DNA from: Leptothoe kymatousa TAU-MAC 1615
GTDB taxonomy: Bacteria > Cyanobacteriota > Cyanobacteriia > Phormidesmidales > Phormidesmidaceae
Assembly: GCF_018739865.1 (NCBI RefSeq)
Contig: NZ_JADOER010000011.1
Coordinates: 310,001 to 374,000, forward strand
Length of the DNA: 64,000 nucleotides
Direction of reading: 5' to 3'
In this document: positions 27,389-51,653 of the stretch, piece by piece
How positions within the stretch are numbered: position 1 is the stretch's first letter
Layout: each line of letters begins with the position of its first letter
The notes under the pieces: generated by a model
Databases searched by the model: none
Seen by the model: the letters and a program-made list of their open reading frames with translations, nothing else
What the model was told of the DNA's origin: nothing
Translations under genes and position numbers: made by a program

Positions 27389-28222
27389 ATGGTAAATCCG
27401 ACCCAGTACCCCGTAATGGTGATTGGAGGGGCAGAAGATAAGGTCGGTCCCCGTAGCATATTGACGAATTTCTTCAAAAGTGCTGGTGGAGCCCAGGCAA
27501 CCATTGGCATTGTTCCTTGCGCATCCCAAGAGCCGAGCGTAGTGGGTAATCGCTACACCCGCATTTTTAGTGAGCTAAAAGCTAAGAGCGTTAAGGTTCT
27601 AGATATTAGGCGGCCGCAGGAATGTGATCAGGATGGTTGGCTCCAGGCTTTAGATAGCTGCACTGGGATTTTCCTCTCCGGCGGCGACCAGGTGCGGTTG
27701 TTTGAATTTATCCGCAATAGTACTTTCGCCACCACCCTTAAAAAACGTCTGAACCTGGGCACGCTAGTGCTGGCCGGAACCAGTGCCGGTGCTGCAGTGA
27801 TGGGAGAAAAGATGATTTCAGGCGGAAGTAGCGGTGAGTCACCTAACCGTGGGCTGGTAGATCTCATGGATGGGTTGGGATTTGTTCCAGAAGTGTTAGT
27901 CGATCAACATTTCCACAATCGCAATCGGATGGCGCGGTTATTGAGTGCGATCGCAGCCAACCCCGACAAACTAGGTATTGGCATTGACGAAGATACCTGT
28001 GCCGCCTTTAAAGGAGATGGCACCTTTGAAGTCATTGGAAAAGGGACCGTCACCATCATTGACCCCCGCGAATTAACCCACACCAACTATCGTAGCTCTG
28101 CCCCAACATCGCCCCTTAGCCTGCACGATTTGCGGGTGCATATTCTCAGCGAAGGCGATGAATACGACTATAGACGCCGCTCAGTATGTATGCCCACCCA
28201 TGGCATGGTGTCTCATTTTTAA
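27389..28222 (+). CDS. cphB: Cyanophycinase (peptidase S51)
   Basis: PVMVIGGAEDKVGPRSILTNFFKSAGG...GIFLSGGDQVRLFEFI...LVLAGTSAGAAVMGEKMI...GLGFVPEVLVDQHFHNRNRMARLLSAI. Confidence 0.95.
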   Translation: MVNPTQYPVMVIGGAEDKVGPRSILTNFFKSAGGAQATIGIVPCASQEPSVVGNRYTRIFSELKAKSVKVLDIRRPQECDQDGWLQALDSCTGIFLSGGDQVRLFEFIRNSTFATTLKKRLNLGTLVLAGTSAGAAVMGEKMISGGSSGESPNRGLVDLMDGLGFVPEVLVDQHFHNRNRMARLLSAIAANPDKLGIGIDEDTCAAFKGDGTFEVIGKGTVTIIDPRELTHTNYRSSAPTSPLSLHDLRVHILSEGDEYDYRRRSVCMPTHGMVSHF

Positions 28223-28599
28223 TCACCAACTACGGCAAAGTATGCAGGTGTCGCTAAAGGTTGTTGCAATTTATCGATAGGGTGTGAAAAATCACGGGAG
28301 CCCATCAGTTTTTATCGTTGGATAACATCGAAAGTTGCATATTTCAATGCGCTAAATGCATCAAATACCCAGTAAAGTATCATGGTATCCTGACAAAGCT
28401 AGGATATCTGTAATTCCAATCAAGCGGTGTTGTATTATCCATTACAGTTAGCCCACACCCTTTGGGTTCAATTATTCAACACCCTTTAAGTTATTTTTGG
28501 TCTAGAACAGCTTTCCGAGAGTCGCACCAAAATTGGAGACCTCTTCACGAAATATTCCGATCAAAATTTCAAAGCATTCACTTAAAATCAAATACATCT

Positions 28600-28613
28600 G
28601 TAATTAATTTTAC
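28600..28613. promoter_or_regulatory. Candidate NtcA-binding site upstream of cphA
   Basis: GTAATTAATTTTAC exactly matches the GTA-N8-TAC consensus; about 165 nt upstream of the cphA ATG at 28780. Confidence 0.5.
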
Positions 28614-28779
28614 AAAAAATATATGACCCAGTTAGCAAGCCTGAGCTAATTTTTGCAGGCATGTTCGCTTTTATCCGTACTAGCTCTCCCCCATAAAGAG
28701 GGCCTGTAGCTTGGCATACGAAATTAACTGGCCCCTTAATTTCTGTTGGCATCTATCCACATACATTTTTTTGTCACCT

Positions 28780-31470: not shown

Positions 31471-31558
31471 TCAGTTAAATGGAACAACAATTTCGGGTGT
31501 GTTGAACGTGGTTTCGACGCACCCGAAATTGGTTTTATACACCCCCAAGAGCACTACC

Positions 31559-32575
31559 ATGGGTAAGCAAAAGGACTTCGAATATTCTCTAACTTGTGGT
31601 TCTCCTAGCAGTGCTCGGAGTGAGCCCGAGCCTGCTATTTTACTGATCGGCGGTGCTGAAGGGGGCAAATCGGGCGAAGATGCTGCCACCAAATGGTTTC
31701 TCGAAAAGGCCCGTGGCGGAAACTATCTCGCCATCCGCACCGGGGGCGTTGGCAAACAAGCCAGCTTTATTAGCCGCAACTATCGAGACTATGTTCACTC
31801 CGCCGCAGAACTCTCCATCGACAGCAGAGAAGCGGCCAACAGCCGCGAAGTAGAAGACTATATTCGCGAAGCCGATGCCCTGTTTATTGCCGGGGGAGAC
31901 CAAAACCTATATCAAGAGTTGTGGGAAGGCACCCGCACCGAAGATGCGATCAATTATCTTATCAACGACAAGAAAGCGCCCGTCGCTGGTACCAGTGCAG
32001 GCATGGCCATCTTGGGCAGCTACTACTATGCGCCAGATCATCAGGGTATAATCAGCTCAGAAATTTTGGATGATCCCTTTCATTTCAATACGCAGACCAT
32101 TCACAAAAGCGATTTTATTCAGGTGCCGTTTTTATCTAATGTGATTACCGACACCCACTTGGACCGGATTAACAAACGGAACCCAGAAACTCGCTACGGC
32201 AGAATTTTAGGATTGTTGGCCAGGGTAATTGCGGCAGATAAAAACTCTCTGGACAATCATGCCATTGGGTTAGAAGAAGGGGCTTTTGTTGCCATCGATA
32301 AAACAGGAATAGCCAAGGTCTTTGGTAATGGCACCCATCGCGGGCAGGATGCGTATTTTCTTTCGCCCAATGGTGCGCTACCTGAACAGATGGAACCTGG
32401 CTGGCCGTTGGTTTGGGACAATGGCGGAAAAGCGGTCAAGGTTTATAAAATTGCTGGCACACCGGAAGGGACAGGAGAGTTTAATTTGAATGATTGGGCT
32501 ACAGCATCTGGGGGCCATTGGGAATATTGGTACACCCTTGGTGGTAAGTCTGGATTACGGAAAAAGTCATCGTAG
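31559..32575 (+). CDS. Second S51/cyanophycinase-like peptidase
   Basis: PAILLIGGAEGGKSGEDAATKWFLEKARGGNYL...ADALFIAGGDQNLYQELWEGT...PVAGTSAGMAILGSYYY, with GxSxG nucleophile motif. Track ORF starts at a GTG at 31499. Confidence 0.82.
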   Translation: MGKQKDFEYSLTCGSPSSARSEPEPAILLIGGAEGGKSGEDAATKWFLEKARGGNYLAIRTGGVGKQASFISRNYRDYVHSAAELSIDSREAANSREVEDYIREADALFIAGGDQNLYQELWEGTRTEDAINYLINDKKAPVAGTSAGMAILGSYYYAPDHQGIISSEILDDPFHFNTQTIHKSDFIQVPFLSNVITDTHLDRINKRNPETRYGRILGLLARVIAADKNSLDNHAIGLEEGAFVAIDKTGIAKVFGNGTHRGQDAYFLSPNGALPEQMEPGWPLVWDNGGKAVKVYKIAGTPEGTGEFNLNDWATASGGHWEYWYTLGGKSGLRKKSS

Positions 32576-32715
32576 GGTGGGCTATGCCGACCAAGCCGAG
32601 AAAATCCGTTACACAATTTGATGGCAATGGACCTGTAGGACATCTCCCTTGCCCCTATAGTGCATCCTACCTCTAGTGCTCAGACTCTGGCTGGCCAATC
32701 CCTACGGAGGCTCCT

Positions 32716-32777
32716 GCCTCCTGGCTGTGGCAGAGCCACAATCTTACACTCCAGGCAGAGCCTTGGAGCGAGAGAAC
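32716..32777. repeat. Copy 1 of 62-bp imperfect direct repeat
   Basis: gcctcctggctgtggcagagccacaatcttacactccaggcagagccttggagcgagagaac; 57/62 identical to 33679..33740 by eye. Confidence 0.88.
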
Positions 32778-32930
32778 ACCCTCTTTATACTGGAGTCCCT
32801 TGTAGACAAGTGGCATAGTTGCACCATCATAGTAAAAACCTAAGAGCAATGCACTAGACACTCATCCGTTTCCATAATTCTGGAATTGCACTCCTACCTA
32901 GTCAAGCAAAAACTGTTACTAGGCAGAAAA

Positions 32931-33599
32931 TTAGCCAACTTTTCTCTTTTTCCAATCTAGCTCCATCGTTAACTTCCCAAGGTGTTGCAAAATCGCTGTC
33001 ACCTGATGCATTTCATTGCCTTGTCTAAATAAAGTAAAGAGCTCTGATAGACCGTAAACCGGCTGGGGCTGTTTAAGGAGCTTGACAAACATAAAATGCC
33101 GACCATTGGTAAGTAAACCAAACAGGGGCAACGCCTCGTCTGGACTAGCCATCATATAGGTCAATGCTTGGGGCAGCGCTTCTAAAACATCCGACTGCTG
33201 GGGCTTAGTCTCAATGGTGACCACCCATAGATTCTGATATAGCACCAATAAATCAATGCGGCCACGGATCATCTCTCCGTCAGCATCTGAATCCTGGTTG
33301 GGAAAGGTAACCTCCACCTGTTTTTCAGCTTTGGGTACAAAGGGAGCAGTTCCTAAACCAGACACAGCTAACAGTGGGGCCAAAATCGACATTTTGACCA
33401 CCTCTTCGTGCAGGCGATATTTGATTAAGCTCAGAAAATTAGCTTTCGCCTTATCTAGCCAGTACAGGTCTCGCTCATCTAGAGCCATCGCCACCCCCTG
33501 CCACTCCGGGAAAAAAGCAGGATCGGTCGATTGCTGCAGACCAAAGCGTGCTTCTACATCATGAAGTTCCAGATTATGGGCGGCAATCACTTGGACCAT
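32931..33599 (-). CDS. PD-(D/E)XK nuclease-like protein (HsdR N-terminal-like), stand-alone
   Basis: GRIDLLVLYQNLWVVTIETKPQQSDVLEALPQALTYMMASPDEALPLFGLLTNGRHFMFV resembles the D...ExK nuclease core of type I R-subunit N-termini. Confidence 0.65.
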   Translation of the reverse strand: MVQVIAAHNLELHDVEARFGLQQSTDPAFFPEWQGVAMALDERDLYWLDKAKANFLSLIKYRLHEEVVKMSILAPLLAVSGLGTAPFVPKAEKQVEVTFPNQDSDADGEMIRGRIDLLVLYQNLWVVTIETKPQQSDVLEALPQALTYMMASPDEALPLFGLLTNGRHFMFVKLLKQPQPVYGLSELFTLFRQGNEMHQVTAILQHLGKLTMELDWKKRKVG

Positions 33600-33678
33600 G
33601 GCACAGATAGAAGATGTAAATCATCAGACTGCTGACTATCTATTCTATCCTAGTACAATTGAATCCTGCTAAGGCTTT

Positions 33679-33740
33679 GCCTTCTAGCTGTGGCAGAGCC
33701 ACAATCTTTCACTCCAGGCAGAGCCTGGGAGCGAGGGAAC
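33679..33740. repeat. Copy 2 of 62-bp imperfect direct repeat
   Basis: gccttctagctgtggcagagccacaatctttcactccaggcagagcctgggagcgagggaac; contains small palindromes (GTGGCagaGCCAC). Confidence 0.88.
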
Positions 33741-33767
33741 AAAGCACCGATAATATAAGCCTTGCCA

Positions 33768-34694
33768 TTAGCCTAAAGTGTAGTAACTCTCTCCACCCTG
33801 CTCAATCCACCCACAGACCATCCCCGTTGTTGACTGTGCCGACGCACAGCGCCCTGCCGCGTCAATGGCAATCACGCCGCCTTGTCCCTGTACCCGATTC
33901 ACCAAATACTCAATGCCCGCCTGGGTCGCGGTCTCCACATCCATGCCCCGCCACTGCACAAACATGGCAATCGTCTTCGACAAAACCGTTCGCAAAAACG
34001 CTTCTCCATAGCCCGTTGCCGAAACCGCACAGGACTGATTATCCGCATACACCCCGGCCCCAATAATGGGAGAATCTCCCACCCGGCCCCAGGAGTTATT
34101 TACTAAGCCTCCGGTGGATGTAGCCGCGGCCAAATCACCGTTCAAATCGTAGGCCACTGCACCCACTGTTCCGAGCTTTTCTGGCTTCACCCGCTCGTGG
34201 TCCAACGTGATTGTTCCAGCCGCTTGGGCTGCCTCCCACTGTTTTACCCGCATTGGCGTAACGAAATACTCTTCTGGGCAAAATTCCACATCCCGCAGCT
34301 TGGCAAATTCCATCGCCCCATAGGCCACTAAAAGAACCTGTTGGCCATGGTCTAACACCTGACGCGCCAGGGAAATTGGATTTTTTATTTGGCTCACGCA
34401 GGCTACGGACCCCGCCCGTAAATCGGCACCATTCATTAGGGCTGCATCCATTTCCACCTTGCCCTTGGCGTTCAGCACCGACCCACGGCCCGCATTGTAA
34501 AGCGGGTCGTTTTCTAACAATGAAACACAGTATTCAACAACATCCAGGGCACTATCTCCCCGCTCTAGGCGCTGGCGTCCCTGGTATAGGATGGCGTTAA
34601 TACTTTGTTGAAAACCCTCTTCGCTACTGCCAAACTTTAGGGTTTGAATCGCCCCCGCGCCACCGTGGAGAATGAGAGAATAGGAGTTAGTCAT
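33768..34694 (-). CDS. Isoaspartyl peptidase/L-asparaginase (plant-type, Ntn hydrolase)
   Basis: LILHGGAGAI...DALMNGADLRAGSVACVSQIKNPISLARQVLD...KLGTVGAVAYDLNGDLAAATSTGG, with the autocleavage Thr in GTVGAVA. Confidence 0.93.
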   Translation of the reverse strand: MTNSYSLILHGGAGAIQTLKFGSSEEGFQQSINAILYQGRQRLERGDSALDVVEYCVSLLENDPLYNAGRGSVLNAKGKVEMDAALMNGADLRAGSVACVSQIKNPISLARQVLDHGQQVLLVAYGAMEFAKLRDVEFCPEEYFVTPMRVKQWEAAQAAGTITLDHERVKPEKLGTVGAVAYDLNGDLAAATSTGGLVNNSWGRVGDSPIIGAGVYADNQSCAVSATGYGEAFLRTVLSKTIAMFVQWRGMDVETATQAGIEYLVNRVQGQGGVIAIDAAGRCASAQSTTGMVCGWIEQGGESYYTLG

Positions 34695-36369
34695 CAGCCT
34701 TCCCAACAGTTTCGCTAGGGTCTAGCTCATCGAGTATGCGAAAGCGAATGTGGTTGATGGCCAAATCGCGCAGGGAAAAATCGTCTGGTTTGTCGTCGGC
34801 ATTCATTTTGGTAAAGGGAATGTCTTTGCCAATTTCGGTGTGGTACCAGGACAACCCCATGAAGAAACGCTCGGGATAGGGCCCTCGTTCGATAACATCA
34901 TCGACATTGGATTCCATGGGTAGCCAGCCCACGCCGGGGACATAAAATTCTAGCCACACATGGTTAAAGTCGGGCTCTAGGGGCAGGTGGCGATATTCGG
35001 CATGGGGCGGGCATTTGTAGCGGCCAATGGTGCGACAGGCGATGCCGTTGAGCCGAGCCAGGGCTAACAACACGCCGACATATTCACCACAGGAGCCGGT
35101 TCCCCTGGCGAGGGCAACCGCTGGGGTATCAATGGCGGGCTGAATGCCGTAGGACATGCGATCGTAAACGTAGTTGCGAATGCGCAATATTTTGCGTAGC
35201 ACATTGGTTTCGGTCCCGGCCCCTTCCCGGGCGGCCTGTTGAATGCTGGCTTTTTCCATGTCCAGCTCGTCGTCATCAATGAGGTAGCGTTCTAGCTCTG
35301 TGGGCAAGGGGCGCTCACCTTCGATGTCCTCGGGGGTGAGGCTATATTTCAGGCTATACATTTCTACGGTGGCTTTCCAGCCCACTAGGCCCCCCTGAAA
35401 GGGCTGGATTTGGTCGAACCGGAAGACTGCGACCTGCTGGCCGTTTTGGTCTTCGATGGTGAAGGGATGGCCAATGGGTTCCACATGGCGTACGCGCTGC
35501 CGCAGGGTATTGGAAGGTAGAGCGATGCGCCACTCGACGTTGTTGAGGGTAACGGCATCGAGGGGCAGGAGTTCTTCTACGTAGGAAAACTCCACCAGGT
35601 AACCGTTGGACAGGGTGTAGTGGTCTGCTGGGTTGTGGTGCAGGTAGAGGGGATGGATAAAGGTGCGATCGCGAAACGTGAGTTCGTGGGGCGATTCGGC
35701 ATTGGGGTTATCCCGAATGTAGGGTTCTTCGTCGGCATAGACGATGTGGCAAACGGGATCTTGGGCCGGGTCGGGCTGATAGAAGGCAATGCCGGTGGGT
35801 GAACTGTAGGGGGTGAGGGCGCTGAGCAGAATTTTGCCGGTAGTGTGCTCCAGGCAGTAAACCGTTTGCTCGGTTTGGTCACAGACCCATAGGCCCTCTG
35901 CATTGGCCGCCAGGGTTTCTTCGCCGACGCCGGGTTGGGGAAACTTGCCAATCGGTTCGCCGGTGTCGCGATCAAATAGGTGAATATAGCCAGATTTTTG
36001 GCAGCTAACGTAGACGGTGTTTTCCCAAACGGCCACCCCCGCTACGGTATAGGGTAGTTCGGCCAGTAAGCTGGTTTTTAGGGTGGCGCGATCGCACCAA
36101 AATACTTCTCGGTCTCGCCCAAACCAGAAAGTATCGTGCCAGAGTGATAGCCCCACGGCATCGATCCATTCTTTATCTTCTAGCTGGTGGGGATTGAGGA
36201 TAACGGTGTTATTGGTTTTGGGATTAACGGAGATCAGATAGCCCCGCACCCGATCGATGGAAAAAAACTGGTCTCCATCTGCTGCTAGGCCAGATAGGGC
36301 ATAGACACCAATGGGTCGAATGGTAGATGGTTGTTGCAATGTTTGGTTGGGCACCCCGCAGTCAGGCAT
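34687..36369 (-). CDS. Beta-propeller-like N-terminus plus transglutaminase-like (cysteine protease fold) C-terminal domain
   Basis: N-terminal propeller-like repeats (VAGVAVWENTVYVSCQKSGYIHLFDRDTGEPIG); transglutaminase-like core ARGTGSCGEYVGVLLALARLNGIACRTIGRY...DFNHVWLEFYVPGVGWLPMESNVDD. Its stop overlaps the start of the downstream isoaspartyl peptidase gene. Confidence 0.82.
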   Translation of the reverse strand: MPDCGVPNQTLQQPSTIRPIGVYALSGLAADGDQFFSIDRVRGYLISVNPKTNNTVILNPHQLEDKEWIDAVGLSLWHDTFWFGRDREVFWCDRATLKTSLLAELPYTVAGVAVWENTVYVSCQKSGYIHLFDRDTGEPIGKFPQPGVGEETLAANAEGLWVCDQTEQTVYCLEHTTGKILLSALTPYSSPTGIAFYQPDPAQDPVCHIVYADEEPYIRDNPNAESPHELTFRDRTFIHPLYLHHNPADHYTLSNGYLVEFSYVEELLPLDAVTLNNVEWRIALPSNTLRQRVRHVEPIGHPFTIEDQNGQQVAVFRFDQIQPFQGGLVGWKATVEMYSLKYSLTPEDIEGERPLPTELERYLIDDDELDMEKASIQQAAREGAGTETNVLRKILRIRNYVYDRMSYGIQPAIDTPAVALARGTGSCGEYVGVLLALARLNGIACRTIGRYKCPPHAEYRHLPLEPDFNHVWLEFYVPGVGWLPMESNVDDVIERGPYPERFFMGLSWYHTEIGKDIPFTKMNADDKPDDFSLRDLAINHIRFRILDELDPSETVGKADD

Positions 36370-36635
36370 GGATGGGAGAAGGATTGAGTGGTTAGTGGTT
36401 TTTTATTATAGGGATCTGGGGAGCTTAGGAATTGCAGCCTGGTACACTGACAAGCTTTCTGCTTTTAAGAACGAAAAAGTCTACTCTTGTAGTCCGTAAC
36501 TTTAACCCTGATCTTGCCGTAACTCTGTCTTTACCAATTTTTAAGTCTTGGTAGACATCTCCTTTCGGGGGGTGTGGGGGAGTTTAGGCCCCCACGACAT
36601 GGGGGGTTTCAGGGGGGAAAGCCCTGAGCGCACCT

Positions 36636-36669
36636 TCTTGCATTTGTCCCACTCTTGCATTTGTCCCAC
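36636..36669. repeat. 17-bp tandem duplication
   Basis: tcttgcatttgtcccac x2 read directly. Confidence 0.85.
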
Positions 36670-36831
36670 TTGGTCATAAATGCACTAGATCACTGGTCAA
36701 AAGCAAAACCGGCTGCGTGGGGTCCCGCCGAGTTCCCCACACCCCCATGGCTAGGGCGTTCCGCCGCCCTAGAACCTACGGGAAAATATAGTTGGTATCC
36801 CTGATAGGCGGTTGGGGGTGCGGTTGGGTAA

Positions 36832-36865
36832 TTTAGAATTTTGCGCGGGGCGACAAAATTCTAAA
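36832..36865. repeat. 12-bp perfect inverted repeat with GC-rich loop
   Basis: TTTAGAATTTTG-cgcggggcga-CAAAATTCTAAA. Confidence 0.85.
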
Positions 36866-36988
36866 AGGGTTGAGGTTTCGAGTTCGTTGGGATGGCAAAT
36901 TTGAAGTGCAGGAACCAGGCAAAGCGAGGATTCTTGTAGGGGCACTCCCTTGTGGATGCCCCGATCCCTAACGCCTTTCTCCAAAGGC

Positions 36989-39091
36989 TTAAACCTTCGC
37001 ATATTCACCAGTCAGCTTACTCAACTGCTTCACCAACAAGCTCAAAAACAAGCCCACGTCTGTGACCACTCCAATGGATTCCAGCGAGCCTCGGTCGCTC
37101 AGCTTTGTCACCACCGCCGGGTTAATATCCACACACACCATCTTCACGCCAGCGGGGGTCATGTTGCCCACACCGATGGAATGTAGCATGGTGGATAGCA
37201 TCAAAATCAGGTCCGCCCCTTCGATTAGGTGGGCATAGTCGGCCTGGGCCTGGAGCAGGTCCATTTGGGTATCGGGCAAGGGGCCATCGTCTCGAATGGA
37301 GCCTGCCAATGAGAAGGGCACGTTGTGTTTGACGCATTCGTACATGACACCGCTGGGTAAAATGCCCTGGTCTACGGCCTTGGCGATGCTGCCGCAGCGA
37401 CGAATGGCGTTGATGGCTTTGAGGTGGTGTCGATGGCCACCGTGGACGGAGACGCCACGCTTCATATCCATGCCGAGAGACGTTCCCATTAGGGCTTGTT
37501 CGATGTCGTGGACCGCGATCGCATTGCCCCCAAGCAGCCCGTGGACATACCCGTCTCGAATCAGCGTTTGTAGGTGTTCACTGCCCCCGGTGTGAATCAC
37601 CACCGGCCCTGCCGTCACCACCGCTTTGCCCCCCTGGTCACGAATGCGCCGTAGATCCCAGGCAATTTGTTCCACCACCAGTTCTACGCGACGCTCGCTG
37701 GAGACACCGGCCCCCATAAAGCTAAATTCTTCTGAGGACGGTTGCTTTAGGGTCGTTGCCGTACGCTGAGTGCGAATCCCAGCACTGCCGACCACCACCG
37801 ATTCCCCTACCCGTAAATCCCGCAGCAGTTTGCAGCGTGCCACCGGCCCATCAGACGTATGGGTAATTGCGATCGCGCCATCCATCCGCTGGCCATGTAC
37901 CCGAATCCACTGCCCTGCCACCAGCACATCCGTCGGGTAAATCGCCGTTACATAAAAATCATCGGGCGCCACCCCAGCCTGCACCACCGCCTCAAGATGA
38001 GCATTCGCCACGGTCTCGGAACTGACGACGGCCCCCAGATCCACCAGCTGGCCCATGATGTCCTCAATCACCTCCGTATCCGGCGCAGAGACTTTCACCT
38101 CAGCCATAGACGTATCCTGCCGCTGTTCGCCCAAATGGAAGTTCAGTACCTGAAAGCTACCGCCACCAGACACGATGGTATCCAACGCACGATTGACCAA
38201 CCCCGAATCTAATAAATGCCCTTCCAAATTAACCACACGACTTTGAACAGAAGACGCCTGGGGCGACGCCTGACGAGACTCCGTCAGCCGCAGGGTTAAA
38301 CACTTGGCCGCCCCACCCGCCTTCAAAAACTCAGTCAGGGGGGTGGTCATCACGATAAAGCCCCGAGCAGATAGGGCCTGGTGCAGGCTATCGCTGGCAC
38401 TATTCATCACAATGGTCTGGCCCACATTGACCGCATTGCAAGCAAAGTTCACCGCATCTACGTCATCCACCACAATGCGCTTTTCCGCCGGAATGCGACG
38501 CTCAATCAAATGGTTGGAATAGGTATCAAACGCAGGCGGATAATACAGCAAATCACCATTGGTGAGCGGACAAAAACAGGTATCCAGATGATAAAAACGA
38601 CGATCAATCAGGCGTAGCGACAGCACCTCCACATCCAGCCACTTGGCCAAATAGGGATGGGCATCTAACTCCGAGCGAAACCCATACCCGGCCCAAAGAC
38701 AGCCGCTGGCACGATCCAACAGCGCGTCCCCCGCCCCCTCAAACGGCAAACTCTTAGGCAGGGTGTGCACCGTATAGCCATTATCTTCAAACCATTTTTG
38801 AAAATGGGGCTCTTCCCCCTGGCGTTCGGGATGGAAAAAGCGACTAAGCACCACGGTTTTACCCAGCACCAACCCAGCGTTGGCGGTAAATACCATATCG
38901 GGCCATCCAGGCTGGGGCGCCACCAATTCAACCGTCGCCTGCTCCTTCAGAATATGGTGCAGACCTTGCCACTGGTCCTGGGCACGTTCTCGAGACGAAC
39001 GATGGATGTTGCCCTCCATCCAAGGATTAATGACGTAATCCACATCGTAGTGCTGCGGAGCACACATCAAAATTCGCACAGACTCTGTCAT
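36989..39091 (-). CDS. Bifunctional arginine-guanidine-removing / ornithine-proline cyclodeaminase-like enzyme (AgrE/ArgZ-like)
   Basis: N-terminal amidinotransferase-fold MTESVRILMCAPQHYDVDYVINPWMEGNIHRSS...GWPDMVFTANAGLV; C-terminal LOR/SDH-type region with ALMGTSLGMDMKRGVSVHGGHRHHLKAINAIRRCGSI. Confidence 0.9.
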   Translation of the reverse strand: MTESVRILMCAPQHYDVDYVINPWMEGNIHRSSRERAQDQWQGLHHILKEQATVELVAPQPGWPDMVFTANAGLVLGKTVVLSRFFHPERQGEEPHFQKWFEDNGYTVHTLPKSLPFEGAGDALLDRASGCLWAGYGFRSELDAHPYLAKWLDVEVLSLRLIDRRFYHLDTCFCPLTNGDLLYYPPAFDTYSNHLIERRIPAEKRIVVDDVDAVNFACNAVNVGQTIVMNSASDSLHQALSARGFIVMTTPLTEFLKAGGAAKCLTLRLTESRQASPQASSVQSRVVNLEGHLLDSGLVNRALDTIVSGGGSFQVLNFHLGEQRQDTSMAEVKVSAPDTEVIEDIMGQLVDLGAVVSSETVANAHLEAVVQAGVAPDDFYVTAIYPTDVLVAGQWIRVHGQRMDGAIAITHTSDGPVARCKLLRDLRVGESVVVGSAGIRTQRTATTLKQPSSEEFSFMGAGVSSERRVELVVEQIAWDLRRIRDQGGKAVVTAGPVVIHTGGSEHLQTLIRDGYVHGLLGGNAIAVHDIEQALMGTSLGMDMKRGVSVHGGHRHHLKAINAIRRCGSIAKAVDQGILPSGVMYECVKHNVPFSLAGSIRDDGPLPDTQMDLLQAQADYAHLIEGADLILMLSTMLHSIGVGNMTPAGVKMVCVDINPAVVTKLSDRGSLESIGVVTDVGLFLSLLVKQLSKLTGEYAKV

Positions 39092-39477
39092 GGTCAAATC
39101 CAATGAACCTAGGGGTGGTTGCAAAATAATCAGTAAATAAACGAGAGCTCAACACTCGCCAACCAATTATTAACGATCTAGGAACCACAACATTTTTTTG
39201 CCTGGAAGTGTATTTCCAGACTGCTAAAACAGGCTAAAAAGTCAAAATCTCCTGACCTGAGTTGTTTTAGGCATGCCAAAATGCAAAAGCCGCATACTGC
39301 ATGACGACAAAAATTTTGCAACTGACCAAAGGTCCATGCTTTGTTTTACAACGGCCCACAAACTGCAAAGCAATTTGCACAAACAAAACCAGACAACGCC
39401 AAAGTTGTTTTACGAATTTAATTTATGCAAAAACCGCATCAGCGATCGCAACAGAACAGAAAACACCCCAGCAAGCC

Positions 39478-42748: not shown

Positions 42749-45700
42749 ATGGTTCTAACGCAGCGCAGACTCAGTTCTCTTTCCCAACGTTCCATCGTTG
42801 TTAGCCTGGCATTAGTGCTGGCTTTGAGCGCATTTCCGCAGCCAGCTACGGCGATGTCCCTGGCGATGGTGCCGGTGGCCCAAACATCAGGGGCCACCGG
42901 TCAGGTTGGCAACACTGTTGTCAACAATAAAAATGTCGCGAATCTTGTTACGCAAGGGCAAGGTCTAACGATTGACGGCAGCCAATTGATGCAACCCATC
43001 AATCAGGCGCTGAAGGAAAGTTTTGAGCAAGAATATCCAGGCACAGATGTGACCCTGCGAACCAATGGGACTGAACCGGCCCTGGATGCGCTGTTAAATA
43101 ACGATATTGACCTGGCAGCCATTGGCCGATCGCTGTCTGCCACCGAGAAGGCAAAAGGGCTGGTGGAGATTCCCGTTAGTCAGGATGCGATCTCAATCAT
43201 CATAGGCCGCAACAACCGATTTACCGGGCACCTCACCCTGGAACAATTTGCCCAGATCTTCCGGGGAGAGATCACAGATTGGTCAGAGGTGGGCGGCACA
43301 CCCGGCCCCATTCGCTTTATTGATCGGCCCCTGGCCAGTGATACCCGCGCTGTGCTTGGCACCTACGGTATTTTAGGAACCGCGGAACGAGCCCAGGGTG
43401 AGCGGGTGGTCCAGCTAAAAACCGACAATACGGCAGAGGTGATTCGCCAGCTGGACGATGATGGCATTAGCTATGCGATCGCAAGCCAAATCAAAGGCCA
43501 GCGTCGGGTCAAGCCCGTCAAAATGGCGATCCTACAGGACACGCTGCCCGGCGAACAGGCCTACCCCTACGCCCAGATTCGGGGCTATGCCTACAAAAAA
43601 AATAATGCCAAAGCCGTTCTTCCCTTCGTTAATTGGGTAACCGGCGCATCAGGCAAAGCGGCCATTGGCGCCGGTAAAACCGCCGAAGCCGCAGCCATTG
43701 CCACCGCCCTCAATCCACCCATGCTGGCGACAGATGCCGCCACATCCGGGGGCAACATAGGCTTTATCCCTTGGTTATTGGGGCTACTTCCCCTCCCCTT
43801 CCTATTCCTGCTTTGGGGGCAGCGGCGCTCAGCGGCAGAATCAACGTCCCCCAAAGAAAGCCCATTCGCAGAGATCAAACGCCCCGAAACAAAACCAGCG
43901 GCCGCTAACGTCGAAGCTAAACCCGCTGCCCCGACAGCTCCCAAGCCCATCGCCGCCAAGCCCGTCGCCCCCAAGCCCATCGCGCCACCGCCACCGGCTA
44001 AACCCGCTGCGCCCAAGCCGGCGGTAGCTGCGCCGCCGCTGGCTTCGGCACCCAAACCAGCAGCCCCCATCAAGCCACAGACCGTTCCCACACCGCCCAT
44101 CAAGCCAGCGGCGGCTCCAATGCCAGTCGCACCAAGGCCCACATCGCCGCCCACGGTGGCCAAACCCATCAACACAACACCGGGTACCACCCTATCGATT
44201 GTGCCTTTTGAAAAAACAGCCGGCTGGAACAATGCCGAGCAGGTCGCTCACAAAGGGTTCGAATATTTAAAGTCGGAACAAGCTGACAAAGCCGAAGCTT
44301 ACTTCCAACGGGCCCTAGAACTCTCCCCCAGAAATCTCCTAGGTCTCCTGGGGTTGGGTAGCGTATTTTTAACCCTAAAACAGGGAGAAAATGCCCTAGC
44401 CCAGTTCAACCAGGCCACTGAGATTGATCCAGGTAATATCGATGGGTGGATTGGCAAAGGCAAGGCTCTAACCTCGTTGGGACAAGCCGACGCTGCCCTA
44501 GGAGATTTTGACCGGGCACTGCAGCTAAATAAAACCTCCATCGATGCCCTAAAAGCTAAAGGCGATGCCTGTTTAGCCCTAGGTCAACTCGATGAAGCCA
44601 ATGGTTGGTACGGCGAGGCCAATGCGCTGCTCAGCGGCACCCCCATCCCCACATGGAAGCCTGGTTCGAGTGCTCAAACCGTGATGGTGACATCTCCCAC
44701 TAAGGCGCCCGTAGCGCCCGCAGCGCCCACAGCACCCGCAGCAACACACTCCACAGAGAACGCAGGCGTCGCCCAAACGGCTGGCAGTGCAGAACCTAAG
44801 GCCGTTTCGGCTGCCCCCAGCGACGACGCAGGCCACCTCGCAACTATTCGACAATTGGTCAATTGGAATGATCCAGAGGCCATCTGTCAGAAGGGACTGT
44901 ATTACCAAAGCTTAGGGCGCTCCAAGGAAGCAGAATACTGCTTTCGACGGGTATTGGAACTCTCTGGGCACAACGTGACTGCCATGATCGGGTTGGGGCA
45001 AATCGTCCTAGATGCGGGGCAGGCTGACCATGCACTGACGCTGTTTAACCAGGCCGTTGAGCTAGCCCCCAACTCACCTAAAGCCTGGATTGGCCAAGGA
45101 GATGCCCTGATGGCCCTAGGTCGCGGCGATGCAGCCAAACAAAGCTACGCTCGGGCCTGGGGAATCACCCCGGAGACGGCTAATGCTAAACTTTCTCCGA
45201 AAACTGTCATTTCCCCCACGGCGGTCATTTCCCCCACCACTCTAAGGTCTCCCGCAGCGATCGTTTCCCAACCGGTGAGTCAACCATTGGTGAGCCAGAC
45301 AGTGGTGGCGCCACCAGAGAAAACGCCCGCCCCCCCATTGCCTGTGGCACCCCCCGCTCCGGCGTCCTATGTGGCACCATCAACGCCACAGCTACTGGAT
45401 ATGGTGATTTTGGTGGATAGCCAAGCGCCCAATATGGATATCACCGCCATGGAACGGGTGATGGGCGATGTACTCTCAGCCACTCATCGCCCGACCGATA
45501 CGCGCGTCACCTGGCTAGGCACCCATGGCACTATGGCAGGGACTCCCGTTCACCAAAGTGTCCCTGACTATCTGGGTAGCCTGGGCAAAGTTTCCGACAC
45601 TCCAGACGGTGTAATCTCTTCGGCTGAGGCCATGGCAACGATCGCCCAACACTTCGACTGGCGTCCCGGAGCGGCCCAATCTCTCTTGTTTGTTGGGGCC

Positions 45701-46321
45701 CAAGGTCTTCATAACGACAACAACGAAAAAACCGCCGTTCAATCCGTTGTTCAAGCGGCTAATGGCACAGGCACCATTGTTAGCACTTACCTGTATAAGC
45801 CCGCCGATGAGGCAGATAGGGGTGCGATCGCAGCCCATAAAGAACTGGCCATGGCAACGGGGGGGTTGGCCTTTGTCAACGACGGCAATACCCCCATGGG
45901 CGACGTCCTAGGGCAAACCATAGAAAAGACTTGTCGAGAATGTGTCTATCGCAGGCTAACCATTCGCAGCCATAGCGACTGCCTTAGCCTAGATCCAGCT
46001 CGACTCCAATCATTCAACAGTGCTAGGTCCCTCAGCCCAGGTAAATACATTATTCGCATCAATTCAGGCACCTTTAGCTATTGGCCAGATGCCCCCACCT
46101 TCGAACCCGAACCCTGGGTCATGCTGTGGATTAACGGAGGTCGGTTTATCAACCAGGACACCAATGTGGCCGTGGGAACAACATGGCTCACCCTCAATGG
46201 CTATAACGACGTGCTCAAACTAGAAGTGTTAGCAGACACGCACCTCTGCGCCTTGTTTTTAGATACCTACAAAGACGATAACGTGGGCCAGATTACCCTG
46301 TCCATCGTAGAGGCCGGCTAG
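42749..46321 (+). CDS. Membrane-anchored multidomain protein: PBP-like domain, TM, Pro/Ala linker, TPR repeats, vWA-like domain, shared C-terminal domain
   Basis: Signal peptide; PBP-like FEQEYPGTDVTLRTNGTEPALDALLNNDIDLAAIGRSLSATEKAKGLVEIPVSQDAISIIIGRNN...LTLEQFAQIFRGEITDWSEVGG; TM FIPWLLGLLPLPFLFLLWG; TPR-like repeats; LLDMVILVDSQAPNMD vWA-like; C-terminal PEPWVMLWINGGRFINQDTNVAVGTTWLTLNGY. Confidence 0.83.
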   Translation: MVLTQRRLSSLSQRSIVVSLALVLALSAFPQPATAMSLAMVPVAQTSGATGQVGNTVVNNKNVANLVTQGQGLTIDGSQLMQPINQALKESFEQEYPGTDVTLRTNGTEPALDALLNNDIDLAAIGRSLSATEKAKGLVEIPVSQDAISIIIGRNNRFTGHLTLEQFAQIFRGEITDWSEVGGTPGPIRFIDRPLASDTRAVLGTYGILGTAERAQGERVVQLKTDNTAEVIRQLDDDGISYAIASQIKGQRRVKPVKMAILQDTLPGEQAYPYAQIRGYAYKKNNAKAVLPFVNWVTGASGKAAIGAGKTAEAAAIATALNPPMLATDAATSGGNIGFIPWLLGLLPLPFLFLLWGQRRSAAESTSPKESPFAEIKRPETKPAAANVEAKPAAPTAPKPIAAKPVAPKPIAPPPPAKPAAPKPAVAAPPLASAPKPAAPIKPQTVPTPPIKPAAAPMPVAPRPTSPPTVAKPINTTPGTTLSIVPFEKTAGWNNAEQVAHKGFEYLKSEQADKAEAYFQRALELSPRNLLGLLGLGSVFLTLKQGENALAQFNQATEIDPGNIDGWIGKGKALTSLGQADAALGDFDRALQLNKTSIDALKAKGDACLALGQLDEANGWYGEANALLSGTPIPTWKPGSSAQTVMVTSPTKAPVAPAAPTAPAATHSTENAGVAQTAGSAEPKAVSAAPSDDAGHLATIRQLVNWNDPEAICQKGLYYQSLGRSKEAEYCFRRVLELSGHNVTAMIGLGQIVLDAGQADHALTLFNQAVELAPNSPKAWIGQGDALMALGRGDAAKQSYARAWGITPETANAKLSPKTVISPTAVISPTTLRSPAAIVSQPVSQPLVSQTVVAPPEKTPAPPLPVAPPAPASYVAPSTPQLLDMVILVDSQAPNMDITAMERVMGDVLSATHRPTDTRVTWLGTHGTMAGTPVHQSVPDYLGSLGKVSDTPDGVISSAEAMATIAQHFDWRPGAAQSLLFVGAQGLHNDNNEKTAVQSVVQAANGTGTIVSTYLYKPADEADRGAIAAHKELAMATGGLAFVNDGNTPMGDVLGQTIEKTCRECVYRRLTIRSHSDCLSLDPARLQSFNSARSLSPGKYIIRINSGTFSYWPDAPTFEPEPWVMLWINGGRFINQDTNVAVGTTWLTLNGYNDVLKLEVLADTHLCALFLDTYKDDNVGQITLSIVEAG

Positions 46322-46441
46322 GGGCTCTCGATAGCCTTTGCCCCAGACATATTCAGAGCCGATTGCCCCATAAAAAACAACGACTCTGAACAGACACAAT
46401 GATTTGAACAACTTGTAATTGAAATAGAAGGAAGACTCAAA

Positions 46442-46822
46442 ATGCGCGTAGTTGTTGATAGTCAAGAGCATTGCTACGAACTGGACCAAGAGTATTTAAA
46501 TCAGCTCCAATCCACGGCCAATTCAACCCAACTAGAGCCAGGCACCTACGTTATTCGCATCGAGCGTGGAGCCTTTAGCTATGGTCCCGAGCAACAACAG
46601 GTTACCCCCGAGCCCTGGGTCATGCTTTGGATCTATGGCGGTACGTTTGTAAACCGAAAAACCAACGTCAAGGTGGGCGCCACCTGGAGCAGCCTCAATG
46701 GCTATGACGACACCTTGACCTTGGATGTCCTAGAAAAAACAACGGTATGTGGAGTCTTTTTTGACACTTACAAAAAAGACTATTCAGGCGACATCACCCT
46801 GTCGATTTTAAAAGACAGATAA
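46442..46822 (+). CDS. Stand-alone version of the shared C-terminal domain (126 aa)
   Basis: MRVVVDSQEHCYELDQEYL...PGTYVIRIERGAFSYGPEQQQVTPEPWVMLWIYGGTFVNRKTNVKVGATWSSLNGYDDTLTLDVLEKTTVCGVFFDTYKKDYSGDITLSILKDR; aligns to the C-termini of both flanking genes. Confidence 0.87.
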   Translation: MRVVVDSQEHCYELDQEYLNQLQSTANSTQLEPGTYVIRIERGAFSYGPEQQQVTPEPWVMLWIYGGTFVNRKTNVKVGATWSSLNGYDDTLTLDVLEKTTVCGVFFDTYKKDYSGDITLSILKDR

Positions 46823-46892
46823 CCTTCAGGCCTCTAACGTCTTCAGCATTCACGTTTCAGCCTCGGCCCAACCACTGCATATCTAATCCCTT

Positions 46893-49800
46893 TTGCTTGC
46901 GTCTCCCATGAAAGAACCAAAGGCATCTCAGCATACCCGTCTGCACCCGTGGTCCTCTCCCCAGAATGAGCCCAGCTCCCATCAGGGGGTGCCACGCCCT
47001 GTTCCCCGCCGCCGCCGGATGTCTTTGGCAAGGTTTATTGCCATTGTTCTCAGCACCGCCGCCGTCACCCAAATGACCGGGACCAGTTTATCAACGGCAA
47101 AGGCCCAATCCTTTGGACAAAATCCTGACGGGTTTCCTATCCCCGCATCGTTACCCGATGGCACCACCCTGAAGCTGGACGGTTCCACCAGCATGCGCCT
47201 GACCAACGAAGCCGTAGAGCAACGCTTTGAGGCCCAGTATGACAACATCGACATAGAACTCAGAGCTAGCCGCACCGATCAGGCCTTTGAAGAGCTGATT
47301 AACGGCGATATCGACATCCTAGCCACCGGGCGTCCCCTCACGGAGGAGGAAAAAGCTCAAGGTGTCGTAGAGGTGCCCCTAGAACAACGGGAGAAACTGG
47401 CCATCATCCTGGGGCCAGACAATCTTTTTCCCACGGAGGATGACCCCAGCACCCCTGACATTGAAAGCAATCTCACCTTTGAACAGTTTGCCCGCATGTT
47501 TCGCGGAGAGATTACCAACTGGTCTGAAGTGGGCGGTCCCGACCTGCCCATTCGCTTTGTCGATCGACCGGAATATAGCGATACTCGACGCGCCCTCAGC
47601 ACCTACACCGTGTTTGACGGCCAGCCATTTGCCACGGGTAGTACGGCAGCACCTACAGCTGACGACGAGACTGAGACCGTCATCAACGCCCTGGGGGAAA
47701 ATGGCATTGGCTATGCGGTTGTTTCCCAGGTAGCCGACCGGGATGACGTGCGGATCATTCCCATGCACCAAACGTTGCCAGACGATCCACGCTATCCCTA
47801 TTCGCAATATCGAGCCTATGTTTACAAAGAAGGGGCCGATCCGGCGGCCCTAGCCTTTCTAGGGTTTGCCACCAGTGCACCGGGGCAAGAAGTGATTGGT
47901 GCGCCAGCAGGTGCGGCGGCAGGTGCGGCACCTGCCGCCGCGCCGCCGCCGCCAGAAGGGATCAACCCAGAGGTGGTCAACCCAGAGGTGGTAAATCCTG
48001 AAGAGGTGGTCCCCCCCAAAGATGGGGCAGCGGCTGGGAAAGGCATTTTTCCCTGGTGGTGGTTAGGATTGTTAGCCCTAATTCCTTTGTTGTGGTTGGC
48101 CCTGCGGGGGCTTAGCAGCGGCGGGGCAGCAGCGCCTCCTGTGGCAGCGGCACCGCCCGCCCCTCGCATGGTGGTCACTCCCCGCAATTGTCGGGAGGGC
48201 TACGCCTATTGGGAAGTCTCCAAAACACTGTTAGACCAGGCTAAAAATGCCGGTCCCCATGCCGTGAAGGTGCGTTTGTACGATGTGACGGGCAACGGCC
48301 CAGACGCCCCCCTACCCAATAACTTCACCGCTGAATTTGACGGTCTTGAGCACAGCCAGGACCTCCATTTCCCGATTCCTGTGGATGGTCGCACCTACCG
48401 GGGGGAAGTGGGGTATCTGGGTCGCGACAATCAGTGGCATACCTGGGCTACATCGGACCCCGTCAAGGTCCCTGTCTGCCCCCAAGGCAACAAGGCCACA
48501 GCTAGGCCGCAGAAGAAAGCGCTCAATGCCGGTTTGGTGGGATTGGCCGCCGCCGGGGCCGCCGGGGCTGGCGCCGCTGTTGCCAAAGCAGGAACTAAAC
48601 GCACGCTGCCCCCCAGCCGCATGGTGCTTACCCCCCGCACGTCGCGTCAGGGCTATACCTACTGGGAAGTGCCCCAGGAGCGCATTGAGGCGGCCAAGCA
48701 GGAGGGCGGTAAAACCAAGCAGGTGCGTCTATACGATGTCACTGGCCGATTGCCCAACGCCCAGCTCCCCGACCCCATTCTCCAGGTTCATTGCAAGGAG
48801 CCTGACACCGATCGGCTCCTGCCCATCGAACGACCCGATCGAGACTATGTGGCCCAGATGGGCTATCTCACCCCAGAAAATCGCTGGTTGCCCCTAGCGA
48901 AATCGAATGTGGTGCGAGTGCCCGCCCAGCCCACCCCCATAGACCAGATCGGTCAAGCAAAATCAGCGGCTCCCTTGGGGGCATTAGGGGCCGGGGCCAT
49001 GGCCACCGGCCTAGCGGCCACCGGTTTGAAAGATGCGCTGCAGCCAGAAGCACCCAAAATCAATCTGGCGGCACCGGTGGAGGTGAAGGTGGAGGTGGCA
49101 TCCCCTGAAGAATTTCAGGTGCAGTGGACCATGGCCAAGGACCAGAAACTGGCGTTGCTCAACAATGCCGCCTACCATCCCGTGGTTAAGCTCCACGATG
49201 TCACTGGCCTAGATTTTGAACGCCAACCCTCCCACAGGGTGACGGTGCATCCGGTCACCGCAGGCGATTTTAACGGCAACACCGCTGCCAAGGTGCTGCC
49301 CGTGCCCCAGTGCGATCGCGACTACTTAGCAGAGCTGGGCTACGACCACAACAACACCTGGGTTTCCCTGGGCCAGTCCAAAACCACCCAGGTAAAATGC
49401 CCGGTTAATGTTGCAGCCCCGGTGGAGTCCGTTTCCATTGAAGTGCTCTCTCCCGAAGAGTTTCAGGTGAAGTGGGTGATGCCCAAAGCCCAAAAACAGG
49501 CATTGCTAACAGAGGATGTCTACAGACCGCTGGTCAAGCTCAAAGATATGACGGGCAAAGACATGGCGGGCATGGGTACAGACCAGCCAGCGGCCCAAAA
49601 TATCTTCACCCATGGGGTGACCGCAGGCGATTTTGATGGCAATACCGCTGCCAAGGTGCTGCCCGTGCCCCAGTGCGATCACGACTACTTAGCAGAGCTG
49701 GGCTACGACCACAACAACACCTGGGTTTCCCTGGGCCAGTCTCGCCTCACCTTTGTCAAATGCCCGGTCAACGTCAAAGCTCCGGTGGAAAATATCGCCA

Positions 49801-51653
49801 TTGCCGTGCAGTCACCGGAAGAATTGCAGGTGCAATGGGCCATGGCCGAGGACCAAAAACAAACATTGTTGGACGATGACGCCTACACTCCCCAGGTAAA
49901 AATTTACGATGTCACCGGCATTGATTGGGCCGCCCAGCCATCCCACAGTGTCACCGTCCATCCCGTTACTGAGCACACCTTTAGCGGCAATACCGCTGCC
50001 ATGGCGGTGCCAGTATCCCGTTGCGATCGCGACTACCTAGCCGAACTGGGCTATGGCGATGCCCAGGGCAAATGGACCGCCCTAGGGCACTCTCACCATG
50101 TCCATGTGAAATGCCCCGTCAATGTCAAAGCCCCCGTCGAAAATCTCTCCATCGCAGTGGTGTCCCCCGACGAGTTTCAGGTGCAGTGGGCCATGGCCGA
50201 GGACCAAAAACAAACATTGCTCAACGACAACGCCTACACCCCCGAGGTCAAAATCCTCGATGTCACCGGCATTAACCTCGATCAGCAACCGGCCCACGGG
50301 GTTACCGTCCATACCATTCAGCCCAAGGATTTTGACGGGAATACCGCTGCCATGCAATTGCCCGTGCCCCAGTGCGGTCGCGACTACCTGGCGGAGCTGG
50401 GCTATCGCCACGGCAACACCTGGGTCTCCCTGGGCAAGTCTCGCCATACCCATGTGCAGTGCCCCGTCAATGTGAAGGCCCCAGTGCAGACCGTCTTAAT
50501 TGAGGTGCGCTCCCCCGAAGAGTTTCAGGTGCGGTGGTTTATGCCAGAAGATCAAAAACTGGCCCTATTAAACGATGGGGCCTATACCCCCCATGGGGCC
50601 TATACCCTCTTGATCAAAATTCACGATGTCACCGACATGGACCTGTCCCAACAACCGGCCCACAGGGTGGTGACCTATCCCATCACGCATCGAGATTTTG
50701 ATGGGAATAACGCGTCCATGCTGTTACCCATACCCCAGTGCGATCGCGACTACTTGGCGGAGCTGGGCTATAACCATGACGGCGACTGGGTCTCCCTGGG
50801 CAAGTCTCGCTATTCCTATGTGAAATGCCCCGTCAATCTAGAAGCGCCCGTTGAAGACCTGGCCATGGAGGTGCGTTCTGCTGACGAGTGTCAGGTGCAG
50901 TGGACCATGACCGCAGACCAGAAGCGGGTGCTCTTGGCAGATCAGGCCTACGTACCCGAGGTCAAAATTCACGATGTCACCGGCATTGACCTGGATCGGC
51001 AACCGGCCCACAGCACCACCACCCACGCAGTCCTAAGGGATAATTTCAACGACAATACCGGTGCCATGGTGCTGCCCATATCCCAGTGCGATCGCGACTA
51101 CTTAGCAGAGCTGGGCTACCACCACGGCCACACCTGGGTTTCCCTGGGTCGCTCAGCCCATGTTCATGTGGCCTGTCCGCCGCCGCCTGCCCCTGAGCCA
51201 GACACCAATCTGCTGTCCGGGCTGGGGGCTGGGGCCCTAGCCGTTGGCCTAGTTCAGCCCCCCAGCTCAACAGAACAAGGCCCTACCTGTCGGCAACGGT
51301 TAACCATCGACAGCCAACACCATACCTACAGCCTGGATAAGCCCAAAATGTTGGAGCTCCAATCGCGAGCCCAGCAAGTTGTCCTCCCCCCCGGATGTTA
51401 CATCCTCACCCTCGAACAACCGGCAACGGCCAACCCCAGAGAGCCCCACATGGTGATCTGGATTTACGGGGGACGCTTTGTCAATCAACAAACCAATGTG
51501 GAAGCGGCCTCCACCTGGAGCACCCTAAATGGCTACGGTGACAGTCTCACCCTAACGGTCATAGAACCCACAACAATATGCGCCCTCTACTTCAACACGG
51601 TTCCTAACCCAGAGCAGGGGCAGCTCACACTGTTGATTTTAAAAGACGAATAG
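46893..51653 (+). CDS. Membrane-anchored multidomain protein: PBP-like domain, TM, eight DUF4912-like modules, shared C-terminal domain (1586 aa)
   Basis: PBP-like head (LKLDGSTSMRLTNEAVEQRFEAQYDNIDIELRASRTDQAFEELINGDIDILATGRPL...FARMFRGEITNWSEVGGPDLPIRFVDRPEYSDT); TM IFPWWWLGLLALIPLLWLALRGL; modules starting near 48165, 48618, 49071, 49416, 49779, 50130, 50478 and 50844; shared domain from about 51291. Confidence 0.85.
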   Translation: MLASPMKEPKASQHTRLHPWSSPQNEPSSHQGVPRPVPRRRRMSLARFIAIVLSTAAVTQMTGTSLSTAKAQSFGQNPDGFPIPASLPDGTTLKLDGSTSMRLTNEAVEQRFEAQYDNIDIELRASRTDQAFEELINGDIDILATGRPLTEEEKAQGVVEVPLEQREKLAIILGPDNLFPTEDDPSTPDIESNLTFEQFARMFRGEITNWSEVGGPDLPIRFVDRPEYSDTRRALSTYTVFDGQPFATGSTAAPTADDETETVINALGENGIGYAVVSQVADRDDVRIIPMHQTLPDDPRYPYSQYRAYVYKEGADPAALAFLGFATSAPGQEVIGAPAGAAAGAAPAAAPPPPEGINPEVVNPEVVNPEEVVPPKDGAAAGKGIFPWWWLGLLALIPLLWLALRGLSSGGAAAPPVAAAPPAPRMVVTPRNCREGYAYWEVSKTLLDQAKNAGPHAVKVRLYDVTGNGPDAPLPNNFTAEFDGLEHSQDLHFPIPVDGRTYRGEVGYLGRDNQWHTWATSDPVKVPVCPQGNKATARPQKKALNAGLVGLAAAGAAGAGAAVAKAGTKRTLPPSRMVLTPRTSRQGYTYWEVPQERIEAAKQEGGKTKQVRLYDVTGRLPNAQLPDPILQVHCKEPDTDRLLPIERPDRDYVAQMGYLTPENRWLPLAKSNVVRVPAQPTPIDQIGQAKSAAPLGALGAGAMATGLAATGLKDALQPEAPKINLAAPVEVKVEVASPEEFQVQWTMAKDQKLALLNNAAYHPVVKLHDVTGLDFERQPSHRVTVHPVTAGDFNGNTAAKVLPVPQCDRDYLAELGYDHNNTWVSLGQSKTTQVKCPVNVAAPVESVSIEVLSPEEFQVKWVMPKAQKQALLTEDVYRPLVKLKDMTGKDMAGMGTDQPAAQNIFTHGVTAGDFDGNTAAKVLPVPQCDHDYLAELGYDHNNTWVSLGQSRLTFVKCPVNVKAPVENIAIAVQSPEELQVQWAMAEDQKQTLLDDDAYTPQVKIYDVTGIDWAAQPSHSVTVHPVTEHTFSGNTAAMAVPVSRCDRDYLAELGYGDAQGKWTALGHSHHVHVKCPVNVKAPVENLSIAVVSPDEFQVQWAMAEDQKQTLLNDNAYTPEVKILDVTGINLDQQPAHGVTVHTIQPKDFDGNTAAMQLPVPQCGRDYLAELGYRHGNTWVSLGKSRHTHVQCPVNVKAPVQTVLIEVRSPEEFQVRWFMPEDQKLALLNDGAYTPHGAYTLLIKIHDVTDMDLSQQPAHRVVTYPITHRDFDGNNASMLLPIPQCDRDYLAELGYNHDGDWVSLGKSRYSYVKCPVNLEAPVEDLAMEVRSADECQVQWTMTADQKRVLLADQAYVPEVKIHDVTGIDLDRQPAHSTTTHAVLRDNFNDNTGAMVLPISQCDRDYLAELGYHHGHTWVSLGRSAHVHVACPPPPAPEPDTNLLSGLGAGALAVGLVQPPSSTEQGPTCRQRLTIDSQHHTYSLDKPKMLELQSRAQQVVLPPGCYILTLEQPATANPREPHMVIWIYGGRFVNQQTNVEAASTWSTLNGYGDSLTLTVIEPTTICALYFNTVPNPEQGQLTLLILKDE
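49071..51180 (+). repeat. Six tandem ~345-365-bp DUF4912-like coding repeats, parts nearly identical at DNA level
   Basis: Recurring (V/I)SPEEFQVQW.M..DQK..LL...Y.P.VK..DVTG...PVPQCDRDYLAELGY.H.N.WVSLG.S....VKCPVN; ccccagtgcgatcgcgactacttagcagagctgggctacgaccacaacaacacctgggtttccctgggccagtc recurs at ~49307 and ~49667 almost unchanged. Confidence 0.87.

Follow-up and report, generated by a model that had tools for sequence, protein, structure and literature searches.

A conserved cyanobacterial gene set: one or two large membrane proteins and a small soluble one that usually share a C-terminal domain

What is to be made of three adjacent genes of which two encode large membrane proteins of different build, while all three carry the same C-terminal domain (CTD)? 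Such a locus lies in the window, by which we mean the whole 64,000-nucleotide stretch of DNA analysed here, and a reading of the sequence alone had proposed it as an undescribed system. The genes, called A, B and C, are co-directional ORFs on the plus strand with gaps of 120 bp (A to B) and 70 bp (B to C), reproducing the ORFs, strand and spacing given by the sequence-only reading. Their architectures are PBP-TM-TPR-vWA-CTD for A, the CTD only for B and PBP-TM-8xDUF4912-CTD for C.

42749..46321, plus strand: gene A, 1190 aa; signal peptide, PBP_like_2 domain (72-299), TM at about 337-355, Pro/Ala-rich linker, two TPR blocks, degenerate vWA (about 886-1070) and CTD (1068-1190)
42929..43723, plus strand: PBP domain of A; closest solved relative Sll0540 (9L8J), E 4.6e-41
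45374..45958, plus strand: predicted vWA-fold domain of A without MIDAS, from an AF2 model, Foldseek and an alignment with L127
45950..46318, plus strand: CTD of A, from the genome search with B, identity to B and domain mapping
46442..46822, plus strand: gene B, 126 aa; CTD alone, without signal peptide or TM; AF2 pLDDT 91.8
46893..51653, plus strand: gene C, up to 1586 aa; signal peptide, PBP_like_2 domain (87-329), TM at about 385-403, eight DUF4912 modules and CTD (1466-1586)
51288..51650, plus strand: CTD of C, from the genome search with B, identity to B and domain mapping

Gene C is listed with a TTG start codon; translation may in fact begin at the ATG at 46908 or that at 47019. Pfam matches were found for the claimed PBP-like domains (PBP_like_2, residues 72-299 of A and 87-329 of C), for the TPRs of A and for DUF4912, with eight stretches in C; gene B gave no match in the Pfam and NCBIfam scans. 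Hydropathy places an N-terminal signal at residues 16-34 of A and a single TM near residue 337 of A and near residue 385 of C, and it detects neither signal nor TM in B, in agreement with the claim that B lacks a signal peptide. The related claim, of a signal peptide and one TM in both large proteins, thus holds for the signal of A and for both TMs, while the signal peptide of C was read from RRRRMSLARFIAIVLSTAAV only and was not scored by the hydropathy scan. Because of the signal peptides, the single TM positions and the signal-less B, the PBP domains would lie outside the membrane and every CTD on its cytoplasmic side. Terminator and promoter scans of the window gave matches no richer than those in shuffles, and no known RNA elements were found there.

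The domain common to the three proteins, put at about 125 aa by the earlier reading, proved real: B is 51% and 48% identical to the CTDs of A and C, respectively, the copies spanning residues 1068-1190 of A, 1-126 of B and 1466-1586 of C. A search with B against the window's own genome returned just these three copies (E 5.6e-85, 8.0e-37 and 5.9e-32), the next best hit having an E of 0.39, in an assembly that is 75% complete and against which all genome-wide absences are to be read; such three-copy sharing is far beyond chance. The AF2 model of the CTD, built from a 63-sequence alignment, has a mean pLDDT of 91.8 and consists of one N-terminal helix followed by beta strands. It had no Foldseek match at E<=1e-3 in the PDB and viral structure sets; the sequence had no match in Pfam, NCBIfam or PADLOC, and a profile search of PDB sequences gave nothing credible. 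A TNF-like or cyclic-nucleotide-like fold was considered and rejected (best E>=6e-3, low TM-score). On the predicted structure, we read the CTD as a new small beta-sandwich family, absent from the Pfam, NCBIfam and PDB copies searched, that recurs in filamentous cyanobacteria with its own conserved gene pair.

Scanning GTDB r220 yielded 133 CTD relatives, and the 76 loci that were fetched and kept are all cyanobacterial (76/76); in an even sample of the class, the CTD is present in 51 of 390 genomes. Among the named loci, a PBP gene comes immediately after 46 of the 69 small CTD genes, at a median gap of about 107 bp, and where the fetched DNA was long enough, the gene after the small CTD gene is usually PBP-(DUF4912)n-CTD, with n ranging from 0 to about 10. 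The homologues of B and C are thus neighbours in other genomes too and, judged by this gene order, B and C are the conserved core and A is an optional slot. In the CTD tree, the B-type and C-type copies each cluster, with 9 and 8 label changes compared to about 41 after shuffling; clustering so strong, and so far beyond chance, argues that the pair is old. The PBP-TPR-vWA-CTD type of A was found in five of the eight searched genomes of the window's genus (the window, L053, L054, L055 and L056, the L053 copy being a fragment at a contig edge), and the CTDs of this type form a single clade with 100/100 support. Of the proposed undescribed, conserved three-gene system, there stands a real conserved locus in which a small CTD protein accompanies a membrane CTD protein; the trio that includes this form of A occurs only within the genus-level group of the window. 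Filamentous cyanobacteria, then, have a conserved and apparently undescribed set in which a small soluble protein is encoded along with one large membrane protein or two, the CTD being their usual link. The open-access literature searched holds no description of it. We call it new because neither the libraries nor the open-access papers searched contain a family, fold or described system that matches it, and not because a new function was demonstrated.

Stand-alone CTDs with no PBP gene near them occur in Nostocales and Okeania, and the CTD therefore has other contexts as well. Those of Nostocales include lone CTD genes of about 139-155 aa that form one clade and have no PBP gene nearby (L081, L088, L089, L093, L094, L099, L113, L118 and L120). 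Large proteins with tandem CTDs and coiled-coil tails are encoded at L127:6048-11570, at L122:3-3821, upstream of a B-C pair, and in L179-L182; the one in L127 combines a MIDAS-bearing vWA, a propeller-like stretch, two CTDs and a coiled coil. A gene of about 175-186 aa directly follows C in eight loci (L125:11370-11927 and seven others), and a similar-looking gene follows a CTD-less PBP-DUF4912 gene in L219. As PBP-TM-DUF4912 proteins without a CTD also exist, the set with the CTD forms just one part of a wider PBP-TM family. Another PBP-TM fusion of the window's genome, at L177:3783-6056 (G000:C15), ends in a long low-complexity repeat region.

Outside the window's genus, the A slot is either empty or holds a PBP-(TPR)-pseudo-glycogen-phosphorylase without a CTD, and because this protein carries no CTD, the proposal of two receptors joined by a common cytoplasmic domain fails as a general rule. 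Immediately upstream of B, the loci L050, L084, L104, L108, L128 and L185 carry a gene for a PBP-TM-(TPR)-carbohydrate phosphorylase whose phosphorylase part matches PF00343 at E 1.5e-286 to 6.4e-256 where scanned and TIGR02093 above its cut-off; at L124:803-4981 (the same as L194), the gene for this protein is broken into two reading frames. Fusions with an ORF longer than 1150 aa occur in 12 of 50 CTD-bearing genomes versus none of 42 CTD-less ones (hypergeometric about 3e-4, which is not a clean probability, the genomes being related). Eleven pseudo-phosphorylase genes, in as many genomes other than that of the window, directly adjoin a small CTD gene, including the one of G279 that is cut by a contig edge, and the fusions that do not adjoin one are those of G107, G118 and G297, all of one genus.

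In all fusions read at the sites concerned, the PLP lysine Lys680 has become I, M or A and Lys568 is gone, and in every fusion read there, His341 is lost (NDTH to NDTD) and the 280s loop is missing; in the split frame of L124, the loop was read from one half and the lysine sites from the other. The site names follow rabbit phosphorylase numbering. A true GlgP encoded 2 kb downstream in L108 retains Lys680, Lys568, His341 and the 280s loop. Since the fusions are 53-62% identical to true GlgP with the catalytic residues missing, the A-slot phosphorylase must be catalytically dead with its fold kept. Dead glycogen phosphorylases fused to phosphate-binding-type sensors appear to be undescribed; the searched portions of a 2026 review of glucan breakdown in phototrophs mention no PBP-fused dead phosphorylase (PMC12892837). 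Such disabled GlgP copies, in the third gene of some relatives, suggest that sensing outside the cell may be linked to carbon storage inside it, and the fusions would give a handle on the coupling of outside nutrient state to carbon storage. The A of the window has no phosphorylase and no PBP-phosphorylase was found in the window's genome (75% complete), and the glucan link is for this reason drawn from the relatives, extending to the window by analogy of the slot; in the window's set, the coupling idea is testable with three genes.

The middle of the window's A, called vWA-like in the sequence-only reading, went undetected by Pfam but is a vWA by predicted fold: the AF2 model of the region has a pLDDT of 80.6, and Foldseek ranks the vWF A1 domain first among its matches (E 3.1e-6, prob 1.00). 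DSQAP stands in place of the canonical DxSxS MIDAS motif, and the MIDAS is lost in five of five members of the genus (DSQxP, DGQAP or NTQxP), while the homologous vWA in L127 keeps DTSPS. This metal-less vWA fits the pattern of the catalysis-dead phosphorylases.

The PBP domains match PF12849 (PBP_like_2) with E 5.6e-29 in A and 3.9e-28 in C, both below the TIGR02136 cut-off. Across 82 PBP domains of A, C and the phosphorylase fusions, a set including some same-genome sequences under two locus names, DRPxxSDTR replaces ...SGT, GRxLT replaces (S/D)RPL, and an acid stands where PstS has Gly. In PstS, the SGT loop and the Ser/Asp before RP are phosphate contacts. As the loop residues are strongly conserved in their new pattern, the simplest reading is a site that is retained but altered, a candidate for ligand binding.

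With confidence that is evenly balanced, we consider the locus a transmembrane receptor or scaffold complex, assembled through its CTDs, with non-catalytic cytoplasmic modules and plausibly tied to glucan storage. C, and A where present, would hold a PstS-derived, non-transport ligand-binding domain in the periplasm and cross the membrane once. The cytoplasmic modules would be non-catalytic throughout, being DUF4912 repeats in C, TPR and the metal-less vWA in the window's A and, in other lineages, TPR and the dead glycogen phosphorylase in the A slot. We infer that the CTDs of the membrane proteins and free B co-assemble through the shared beta-sandwich, with B, a putative adaptor or competitor in the sequence-only reading, capping, bridging or tuning the complex. 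Where a pseudo-phosphorylase is present, its likeliest role is to retain glucan binding or to partner active GlgP, and the breakdown of storage glucan would then be tethered or regulated at the membrane under the control of the PBP ligand. The more specific proposal is a hitherto unknown transmembrane control of cyanobacterial storage glucan, in which a PstS-derived receptor, ending inside the cell in a dead glycogen phosphorylase or in a dead vWA that can take its place, works together with a DUF4912 scaffold linked through the CTD and with a soluble protein made of the CTD; we put it forward tentatively and find it rather doubtful. If true, pseudo-enzymes would couple an extracellular signal to the mobilisation of glycogen or the tethering of its granules.

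A structural scaffold without sensing, in which PBP and CTD just assemble structures or anchor them to the inner membrane (storage granules or envelope or motility structures, for instance), would account for the loss of every testable catalytic or metal site, for a DUF4912 number that ranges from 0 to about 10 and for the CTDs in the vWA-propeller-CTDx2-coiled-coil protein of L127. The strong conservation of the PBP loop residues in their new pattern, however, suggests a kept ligand, and we regard the purely structural role as unlikely.

Phosphate is a possible ligand but not a favoured one, judged by the residues of the site. A receptor for phosphate status, with PBP domains that bind inorganic phosphate like PstS and report to the cytoplasm (in the window, via TPR, vWA and DUF4912), would agree with the matches to PBP_like_2 and PstS models, with Sll0540, the closest solved relative, being annotated as a phosphate-binding protein relative (PMC3610870), and with the consumption of phosphate by the phosphorylase reaction. 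The anion-contact loops are nevertheless consistently changed across the 82 domains, and this makes such a receptor quite improbable. Nor were Pst or Pho genes recognised beside the locus in the neighbour gene lists read, and A and C, with their TM and cytoplasmic domains, depart from a soluble or lipoprotein PstS encoded beside pstCAB. An anti-phage defence operon, which the patchy distribution might suggest along with the TPR and vWA domains found in certain defence systems, is disfavoured as extremely improbable, PADLOC having hit only TPR models of a generic kind, and these weakly, with no match for B, C or the phosphorylase fusion, and the remaining recognised genes of the window being housekeeping or storage.

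Some of the neighbouring genes deserve mention. Upstream of the locus, window positions 27389-39124 encode a cyanophycinase, a cyanophycin synthetase, an asparaginase-type enzyme, a transglutaminase-like protein and a probable AgrE-type arginine enzyme. In the window, the cphB-cphA pair lies 14-11 kb upstream of the locus; most Okeania loci have it about 1.2-1.5 kb upstream of B. In the sister genomes of the window, G003-G005, the surroundings of the locus do not include it, and a cyanophycin link was treated as coincidence. A 2453-aa secreted-looking protein is encoded at 6151-13509 on the minus strand. In a Nodosilinea-type clade (L090, L101, L102, L116 and L117), the locus is followed by glgC (ADP-glucose pyrophosphorylase), which is weak evidence for a glycogen link because it lies directly downstream of C in that one clade only. 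DUF4912 itself was rejected as a glucan domain, since glycogen genes do not consistently adjoin the stand-alone DUF4912 protein in the six contexts that were read. This protein, of about 410-540 aa, turned up in 26 genomes out of the 27 searched, G045 being the exception (L216:5800-7026 is one example), and those read have a Rho_N/SAP-like N-terminus.

Among known systems, the eight modules of C belong to DUF4912 (PF16258), a family with no known assignment of function whose name occurs, in the open-access literature, in a sole paper, on a cotton transcriptome. The vWA of A shares the fold of the vWA domains (Foldseek E 3.1e-6 to vWF A1) and is homologous to the MIDAS-bearing vWA of L127, but differs from the MIDAS class in lacking DxSxS and a Pfam match. 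Proteins of the PstS/SphX type (PF12849; Sll0540, PDB 9L8J) are of the same fold family as the periplasmic domain of A and C (E 4.6e-41), whereas in A and C this domain is fused to a TM and a large cytoplasmic part, its phosphate-contact loops are changed, and no genes for a transporter were recognised next to it. The C-terminal domain of the relatives' A-slot protein is in the family of GlgP (PF00343, TIGR02093, GT35), with 53-62% identity, but is without the PLP lysine, Lys568, His341 and the 280s loop, and is anchored in the membrane behind a PBP domain. Finally, a Ser/Thr kinase-TM-PBP protein of the window's own genome (L178:4062-6131; G000:C4) likewise joins a PBP-like domain to a cytoplasmic part by way of a single TM; unlike A and C, it has a catalytic kinase domain, a C-terminal PBP and no CTD.
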